Assembly (NCBI GenBank): GCA_020853095.1
Contig: JADYZN010000035.1
Span: 1 to 64,000 of the forward strand
Reading direction: 5' to 3'
DNA length: 64,000 bases
DNA from: Phycisphaerales bacterium
GTDB taxonomy: Bacteria; Planctomycetota; Phycisphaerae; Tepidisphaerales; Tepidisphaeraceae
The position numbers and the translations under genes are program-made. The notes beneath the pieces were generated by a model, which did no database searches, had not been told where the DNA came from, and was given only the letters and a program-made list of their open reading frames with translations. Positions 25-31,325 of the stretch are shown one piece after another. Position 1 is the first letter of the stretch. Each line of letters begins with the position of its first letter.

Positions 25-131
25 GTGGAGGCGTTGTGGGTGCCGCAGAAGCGGCAATCCTGCAACGCCTCCACTGCATGTGGTCGCCGCTTCGACTGGC
101 ACCCACGCGACGCCTCCCGGCCAACGGGAGG
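25..131 (+). promoter_or_regulatory. Leader with mutually exclusive hairpins before the sigma-like gene
   Basis: Positions 25-36 and 63-74 form a perfect 12-bp inverted repeat (GTGGAGGCGTTG/CAACGCCTCCAC). The same left arm (27-44) can instead pair with 98-117 in two 8-bp blocks, extended by an inner 8-bp pair 48-55/86-93 (GAAGCGGC/GCCGCTTC). A third 7-bp hairpin, 113-119 with 125-131 (CCTCCCG/CGGGAGG), buries the GGGAGG Shine-Dalgarno of the gene starting at 138. The long hairpin uses 113-117, so it would release the ribosome site. The 25-36/63-74 hairpin would leave 113-119 free to block it. The pairings are read directly from the sequence; translational control is inference. Confidence 0.5.
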
Positions 132-137
132 TCCCAA

Positions 138-731
138 GTGGACACCAATCAGAAGCGATGTGAACTGACCGATTACGCACTCGAACTCGTCCATCACAAG
201 GCGTGGCAGCTCGTCGGCAAGGCGGGCTACACGCAGGACGATGTGGATGACATCAAGCAGGACCTGATCGTGGACCTGCTGGAACGCTTGCCCCAGTTCG
301 ACCCGGCCAAGGCGACCTACAACACGTTCGTCGCCCGCCTGGTCGAGCGGAAGATCTCCAACCTGCTCCGCGACCGCCAGGCGGAGATGCGTGACCATCG
401 GCGTGAGGTCTGCTCGCTCAACGAGGAGATCGACACCGGCGAAGACGAGCCGGTGCAGCGTCTGACCACCATCAGCCAGGACGATCAGGACATCCGCACG
501 GGCAAGTACGCACGCCCCGCCGAGGAACGTGCCCATCTCCAGCTCGACATGGATTCGGTGCTCGACGGCCTGACGCCGGAATTGCGGCAGGTCGCCGAGA
601 TGTTGCAGACCAAGTCCGTCTCCCAGGTCGCCCGCGAACTGGGCATCCCACGCCGCACCTTCCGCGAGAAGCACCTGACGCAACTGCGTGAGGTCTTCGC
701 GGCCATGGGCATGGACGACTACCTGCGGTAA
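138..731 (+). CDS. RNA polymerase sigma-factor-like protein (phage-encoded)
   Basis: 197 residues from a GTG at 138, chosen because GGGAGG lies 6 nt upstream; the frame is open back to 36 but that part is the structured leader. Residues 10-85 resemble sigma region 2 (acidic helix, then a basic segment ERKISNLLRDRQ). Residues 140-190 resemble region 4, with a helix-turn-helix near 161-178 (VSQVARELGIPRRTF). This two-domain layout fits ECF-type sigma factors. It would direct host RNA polymerase to specific promoters. A conserved two-block element follows immediately at 741-772 and recurs before two other phage operons, so self-contained control of phage transcription is plausible (inference). 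A non-sigma HTH regulator is the main alternative. Confidence 0.72.
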   Translation: MDTNQKRCELTDYALELVHHKAWQLVGKAGYTQDDVDDIKQDLIVDLLERLPQFDPAKATYNTFVARLVERKISNLLRDRQAEMRDHRREVCSLNEEIDTGEDEPVQRLTTISQDDQDIRTGKYARPAEERAHLQLDMDSVLDGLTPELRQVAEMLQTKSVSQVARELGIPRRTFREKHLTQLREVFAAMGMDDYLR

Positions 732-740
732 TCACGTTCT

Positions 741-772
741 CCGCCAGTTCGCCCCTGCGCCGGGTAAGTAAC
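741..772 (+). promoter_or_regulatory. Two-block promoter-like element, copy 1 (early operon)
   Basis: CCGCCAGTTC at 741-750 and CGGGTAAGTAAC at 761-772, separated by 10 nt. The same blocks with the same spacing occur at 14699-14730 and, inverted, at 31325-31294. This copy lies 50 nt before the start of the exonuclease gene that opens the recombination/replication operon. Best reading: promoter for the phage sigma-like protein encoded just upstream. An operator is also possible. Confidence 0.6.
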
Positions 773-14698: not shown

Positions 14699-14730
14699 CC
14701 GCCAGTTCTTGATTCCACCGGGTAAGTAAC
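14699..14730 (+). promoter_or_regulatory. Two-block promoter-like element, copy 2 (portal/capsid operon)
   Basis: CCGCCAGTTC at 14699-14708 and CGGGTAAGTAAC at 14719-14730: both blocks identical to copy 1, with the same 10-nt spacer but an unrelated spacer sequence. The first downstream gene starts at 14768. A TGGCG at 14734-14738 pairs with the CGCCA of the first block, as GGCGG does at copy 1. Probable promoter for the structural genes. Confidence 0.6.
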
Positions 14731-30991: not shown

Positions 30992-31207
30992 CTACCGAGC
31001 GAGCACATGAGGGCTTGTTCCGGCCCCCTCATCAAGTCCGTTTTGCCTCTGTTTCGCGGGACTTTCGGAAGTGCGAGAGAAACGCGAACCTGGGCATGAG
31101 TGGGCCGCATGGCGGAGGCGAAGCACGCCCCGGGCGAGGATGGCGGCGATCTCCCGGCGGCGCTGGTGCGGGGTCATCGCGGCCGGGTTGGCGAACGGTT
31201 CTTCCAT
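30992..31207 (-). CDS. Small conserved protein of recombinase operons
   Basis: 71 residues from ATG 31207. The segment MTPHQRRREIAAILARGVLR is a recurrent small-protein motif beside DUF2924/serine recombinase pairs in Planctomycetes and some Proteobacteria; the remainder is low-complexity. First gene downstream of copy 3 of the two-block promoter element. Function unknown. Confidence 0.58.
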   Translation of the reverse strand: MEEPFANPAAMTPHQRRREIAAILARGVLRLRHAAHSCPGSRFSRTSESPAKQRQNGLDEGAGTSPHVLAR

Positions 31208-31293
31208 TGCGGGCTCCTTGCGGATGCGCCCACAACGGCCTTCGCTTGGCGACCGGCGCGATGTCTGGCTGGGTTGGTGCTCTTCGTCCTTCT

Positions 31294-31325
31294 CTTACTT
31301 ACCCGCCGCGAGTTCGAAATGGCGG
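31294..31325 (-). promoter_or_regulatory. Two-block promoter-like element, copy 3 (integration operon)
   Basis: Reading on the minus strand, CCGCCATTTC (31325-31316) is followed after 10 nt by CGGGTAAGTAAG (31305-31294). Spacing is identical to copies 1 and 2. It points toward the recombinase operon, whose first gene starts at 31207, about 87 nt from the end of the element. Only one base in each block differs from the other copies. The rest of 31208-31522 contains no gene I can support and should include the right end of the element. Confidence 0.58.

Follow-up and report, generated by a model that had tools for sequence, protein, structure and literature searches.

A leader RNA family with competing conserved folds upstream of a sigma factor gene in phages of Planctomycetota

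In attenuators (transcriptional riboswitches, T-box leaders and trp-type leaders) an early hairpin and a later GC-rich hairpin share a common strand. The leader described here has the same arrangement, and in most of its relatives the later hairpin is followed by a T-rich tract. Unlike attenuators it adds a conserved third helix on the same strand, which would form after read-through, and it lies between two phage genes with no known ligand, tRNA or leader peptide. The T-tract is also weak in the window, as the whole 64,000 nucleotide stretch of DNA analysed is called here. The put RNAs of phage HK022 are structured phage RNAs which are found at early operons and work as one fold on RNA polymerase (PMC9378689). 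The leader resembles them as a structured phage RNA of about 70 to 140 nt, located at early operons and sometimes present twice per genome (PMC9378689), but it keeps alternative folds and a terminal hairpin over the Shine-Dalgarno sequence (SD). Translational riboswitches and thermosensors are similar in that 72 of 73 leaders have the SD hairpin and a short copy of the element alternates between a 5' hairpin and a start codon hairpin. In contrast to those systems, no aptamer-like invariant unpaired core was identified in the leader and the predicted anti-anti-SD arm was not conserved. To our knowledge gene control in Planctomycetota phages is almost undescribed, and literature searches likewise found nothing.

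The contig carrying the prophage (230,995 bases) opens with base 1 of the RNA element and lacks the prophage's left end. The gene behind the leader (138 to 731, plus strand, GTG start) encodes a sigma-70-family, ECF-like sigma factor. Its product matched Sigma70_r2, covering region 2, the PHROG sigma factor group and TIGR02937 (59.9 bits against a curated cut-off of 42.9), in agreement with the preliminary description, which had called the gene sigma-like. The gene heads an early operon encoding an exonuclease VIII-like protein, a Sak4-like annealing protein, a DUF669 protein, a helicase and a primase. Terminase, portal, head protein/protease, tape measure and large serine integrase genes are also present in the prophage. 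The GTG at 138 is the correct start, as start codons line up across all relatives although the length of the leader differs, which also indicates that the frame upstream of it is non-coding. An upstream ORF beginning at the GTG at 36 was considered and rejected; indels break the frame and no stop is shared. Separately, a very stable hairpin (z = -5.0) with a promoter-like motif in its loop region was seen at 732 to 824 on the plus strand, between the sigma and exonuclease genes.

Bases 1 to 140 of the prophage were assigned to an RNA family absent from Rfam. The 150 nt leader had a minimum free energy (MFE) of -81.4 kcal/mol compared to -53.9 ± 3.9 kcal/mol for dinucleotide shuffles (z = -7.05), and none of 200 shuffles was as good. 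A search of the window against Rfam 15 gave a tRNA as the sole match and no family for the leader at gathering score. Ten divergent loci gave no Rfam 15 match at E ≤ 1, the leader DNA had no match among annotated phages, and no account of the leader RNA was found in literature searches. The leader RNA belongs to a new, previously uncatalogued family, which is probably cis-regulatory.

Approximately 30 close relatives were first obtained by scanning viral and genome contigs at the protein level and with DNA patterns; the first protein scan of genome contigs had given no match. A covariance model was built from these, with rough E-values. Its helices were the middle hairpin, the SD hairpin and a weak pairing of 16-21 with 80-85; the 5' hairpin and the long-range helix B1, both described below, were not part of it. 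In total 122 leaders were gathered from viral contigs and Planctomycetota genomes, 73 of them at less than 85% identity. One candidate (L031) was discarded as a chance hit. Searched with the model, 22 of 397 genomes from the host's class proved to carry the RNA, as did 12 of 392 from its phylum, 9 of 249 from another class of that phylum, and many viral contigs. A sigma-like ORF comes after nearly all 122 leaders. Conversely, a protein profile used by itself identified 80 sigma-like loci, 56 of which have the RNA directly upstream. Several without it have another leader, which in L247 contains a classical intrinsic terminator. The sigma relatives L207, L212, L253, L254, L257 and L260, all without the RNA, have structured leaders of other kinds, in some of which GCCGAAATTTCGGC palindromes are repeated. 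Two sigma genes and two full leaders (L018 and L026) were located on one 83 kb viral contig, IMGVR_UViG_3300028837_004134.

The helix of the leader with the best support is a 5' hairpin at 1 to 41 on the plus strand, absent from the preliminary description and predicted to be of the antiterminator type. It is formed by the pairs 1-3/39-41, 6-10/33-37, 14-15/30-31 and 18-21/25-28. In a sequence-only MAFFT alignment of 60 relatives 97.1% of cells were paired and 13 of 14 pairs had changed on both sides. Sliding the partner strand lowered pairing to 28-60%. Pairing also became worse when arms were exchanged between nearest relatives (sister-swap; p = 0.003 and 0.0004 for the two halves), while sister-swap of unrelated arms gave a null result. 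Throughout, the structures were defined on the same sequences as were used for counting and kinship inflates the counts; slid and shuffled controls fail. As neither the 5' hairpin nor B1 was in the collecting model, their covariation was not made by the search.

The middle hairpin (25 to 74, plus strand) consists of stem A1 (27-36/63-72, extended to 25-74) and an apical stem A2 (38-46/51-60). In the preliminary description 25-36/63-74 was given as a perfect 12 bp stem, and this was borne out, with 24/75 pairing as well. The stem runs on into the apical stem, which had been missed. The middle hairpin is part of the overall MFE fold. In the sequence-only MAFFT alignment A1 and its apex were 87.8% paired, with changes on both sides in 10 of 17 pairs. 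Sister-swap was significant for A1 (p = 0.0006) and gave no signal for A2. Behind the stem, at 73 to 82 on the plus strand, lies the site of a T-rich tract in relatives, a possible intrinsic terminator. The frequency of T is 0.4-0.6 at positions 75 to 79 in relatives, and 0.5-0.6 at most of these, compared to 0.18 across the leader, and at least five T in eight were found in 39 of 73 leaders compared to about 7% of control stretches. The presence of this tract right after the middle stem in most relatives suggests a terminator/antiterminator attenuator, and switching there may affect the termination of transcription as well as translation. The tract of the window (ACTGCATGTG) has three T in eight, and its close relatives also have poorer tracts. 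A simple terminator scan, of a kind which misses bipartite stems, found no terminator in the window. Given these weak tracts and the lack of a scan match, the output of the window's own copy could be translation, with the SD hairpin described below as the means.

Long-range helix B1 pairs 36 to 45 with 97 to 106 (plus strand). It was 97.4% paired in 46 relatives (sequence-only MAFFT alignment) with both-side changes in six of ten pairs, compared to at most 54% in slid controls; sister-swap was borderline (p = 0.07). Helix B3 (48 to 55 with 86 to 93, plus strand), named in the preliminary description and a perfect 8 bp stem in the window, is weakly conserved at 61.8% paired, with no clear excess and a sister-swap that was not significant. 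A pairing of 16-21 with 80-85 (P0) was set aside with support confined to the close relatives of the window. The final hairpin (113 to 131, plus strand) is formed by 113-119/125-131, a pairing likewise named there, which is a perfect 7 bp stem covering the SD. Indels make MAFFT counts useless here and it was scored by local folding. The SD was present in 73 of 73 leaders and paired in 72, and sister-swap was significant (p = 0.009).

The preliminary description had joined these elements into a purely translational switch, in which a long hairpin (27-44/98-117 plus 48-55/86-93) removes the anti-SD CCTCC and frees the ribosome site. The arms do exist in the window, 27-44/98-117 pairing as GGAGGCGT..TGGGTGCC with GGCACCCA....ACGCCTCC around an internal loop, and the two large folds cannot coexist. 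Covariation, whose absence the preliminary description had set as a refuting result, was found in the short hairpin and in the long hairpin's inner half. It did not extend to the outer arm, B2 (27-34/110-117), on which capture of CCTCC depends; this was 63.8% paired compared to 63.7% in shuffles, with no covariation excess, and is gapped away in the L012/L013 clade. A weak sister-swap signal for B2 (p = 0.02), the almost universal SD hairpin, the weak T-tract of the window and the translational logic of the short copy before the integrase operon speak for translational control. The proposal leaves the T-rich tract after the middle hairpin, which suggests termination, without explanation. Competing folds and a covered SD are thus kept from the original proposal, the anti-SD capture arm is not, and a switch acting purely on translation is considered unlikely.

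Strand 25 to 45 is shared, with three conserved and competing partners: the 5' hairpin 1-41, 27-36/63-72 and 36-45/97-106. When compensatory events were counted in a phylogeny-aware manner over all column pairs, 20-26, 6-37, 35-64, 8-35, 38-104 and 43-99 ranked highest. These pairs come from all three helices although the ranking was unsupervised. A tree-preserving G-test ranked pairs similarly, with only 20-26 significant against all pairs. Bases 8, 35 and 64 read A-T-A in 51 leaders and G-C-G in six. One strand base covarying with both of its partners is the expected signature of a true switch. As in attenuators, two mutually exclusive hairpins share a common strand and both are conserved. 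Folding of prefixes of the window RNA gave the 5' hairpin at 46 nt, joined by the apical stem at 60 nt. From 72 nt onward the middle hairpin took over as the MFE fold (-38.1 compared to -24.4 kcal/mol). At full length the 5' hairpin state reached -64.8 kcal/mol and the middle hairpin -76.7 kcal/mol. The 5' hairpin state is therefore less stable by 12 kcal/mol and would need kinetics or a factor. Taken together the comparative and folding data strongly support a leader which refolds between mutually exclusive hairpins, alternative folds having been maintained in evolution.

Conservation of exclusive folds also bears on a put-like function, in which the folded nascent RNA would bind RNA polymerase and confer operon-wide terminator resistance as in phage HK022. 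Such a function would fit stem-loops spanning about 100 nt at early operons, and also the pair of copies that some of the phages carry, comparable to putL and putR. A put RNA needs one fold, whereas the leader has conserved folds that exclude one another, and its main copy is intercistronic. This function is considered improbable, more so than purely translational control. It is less probable again that an ordinary terminator of the upstream gene stands beside an unrelated leader hairpin with no regulatory refolding. Sigma relatives without the RNA can have a terminator at that place (L247; L207 and L253 by eye), but such an arrangement fails on the covarying 5' hairpin and B1 sharing one strand, on the triple covariation and on the short copy. 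A DNA-level element (operator, attachment or replication site) with an accidental RNA reading can practically be dismissed: bases 1 to 46 are highly conserved in sequence among close relatives, but many wobble G-U pairs are tolerated, divergent members retain pairing and not sequence, and the element is always on the coding strand just before the start codon.

In relatives the RNA usually begins 10-55 nt past the stop codon of a conserved gene of about 110 amino acids. This stop is often too close for a promoter to fit, which makes the element mostly intercistronic. A promoter just before base 1 was rejected on the same proximity, the stop often being only 13-55 nt distant, and on the lack of a conserved motif, except in L099, where a promoter motif abuts the RNA element. 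The protein of about 110 amino acids had no relative in Pfam, PHROG, NCBIfam or PDB. Its structure was modelled with confidence (pLDDT 88) and a fold search gave no match. With no sequence relative and no fold match, its identification as a known RNA-binding protein was rejected. In L012, L009 and other loci it reads ..LMQRINFGRIEGL..GEPVFDPPPRVVREIKFGGENGPRPE..KHGLPF.. and it is a candidate trans-acting factor. A small hairpin, GGGGGTCGGCTCCCC, recurs just past the upstream stop and 40-60 nt before the RNA in L009, L010, L012, L040 and others.

A bipartite promoter-like motif was found at three sites in the prophage. An exact match, CCGCCA-N16-GGTAAGTAAC, lies before the recombination operon (741 to 772, plus strand). 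The second site is upstream of the portal and head genes (14,699 to 14,730, plus strand) and the third, with one mismatch in the core, is upstream of the integrase operon (31,294 to 31,325, minus strand). The GGTAAGTAAC core occurs twice in the window, at 763 and 14,721, compared to 0.00 expected. In related loci 21 of 22 sites have YCGNCR ahead of the core at a fixed spacing of 16 nt, and no other offset tested shows it. The bipartite pattern with zero mismatches occurs at four places in the 3.6 Mb genome, three in the prophage and one in another contig, C41. Among viral contigs, at least 120 stretches matched CCGNCR-N16-GGTAAGTAAC exactly. From their position and motif these sites are probably promoters of the phage sigma factor.

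The 5' hairpin recurs by itself in a short copy behind the third motif site, ahead of the integrase operon (31,227 to 31,269, minus strand; 31,207 to 31,269 with the alternative pairing). The 3' strand of this copy, GTTGTGGGCG, can pair instead over the start codon region GCCCGCAAT after the latter has been transcribed, and the folds of its prefixes switch between 43 nt and 65 nt. The fold of the short copy alone is modest (z = -1.4 against mononucleotide shuffles), so its assignment is based on sequence and layout. The same layout was found in C41 and, before DUF2924-like genes, in L393 and L394, in the latter followed by an integrase. Several phages have two copies about 3.65 kb apart, one before the sigma gene and the other before a small ORF, a DUF2924 gene and a serine integrase gene. 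Positions 2,580 to 2,710 of C41 (L285), in the host's own genome, hold a second promoter, short RNA and small ORF, perhaps a prophage remnant.

The best explanation, and one we consider reasonably probable, is that the leader is a co-transcriptional RNA switch of three states combined with downstream sigma promoters. In state 1 strand 25-45 would pair with 1-21 as soon as it is made and serve as an antiterminator. In state 2 it would pair with 51-74 in the longer GC-rich hairpin, which is predicted to displace state 1 thermodynamically past about base 72. This would be the OFF state, resembling an intrinsic terminator in most relatives, with the T-rich tract behind it. In state 3 the strand would pair with 97-106 after read-through and lock the read-through RNA. 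A separate hairpin covers the SD. Some factor, whether a protein, the ribosome on the upstream gene, an RNA or a ligand, would stabilise state 1 and so permit expression of the sigma factor gene and the downstream operon. In the short copy of the integrase operon the 5' hairpin would compete with the start codon hairpin, making translation the regulated step. The CCGNCR-N16-GGTAAGTAAC promoters in front of the recombination, head and integrase operons are probably recognised by the sigma factor. The refolding leader thus probably turns the phage's own sigma factor on or off, and its shorter form does likewise for the integrase operon.

More tentatively, the two leaders could belong to a phage-wide RNA regulon, in which the shared 5' hairpin senses one signal before both the sigma and integrase genes, the short element standing behind a promoter read by that sigma factor, and the full element has three states. 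This is a possibility we hold with less than moderate confidence. If it is true, one signal sets both sigma factor and integrase synthesis through RNA refolding, and a single strand changes partner during transcription, first pairing upstream, then with a terminator arm and last at long range. The findings bring together a defined RNA family of wide distribution whose switching can be tested, a sigma factor of the phage and the promoters predicted for it ahead of three operons (recombination, head and integrase). With them, direct tests of the lysis/integration circuit become feasible for a whole group of phages. A natural strand whose three partners are coordinated in evolution would also be a good model of co-transcriptional RNA folding.
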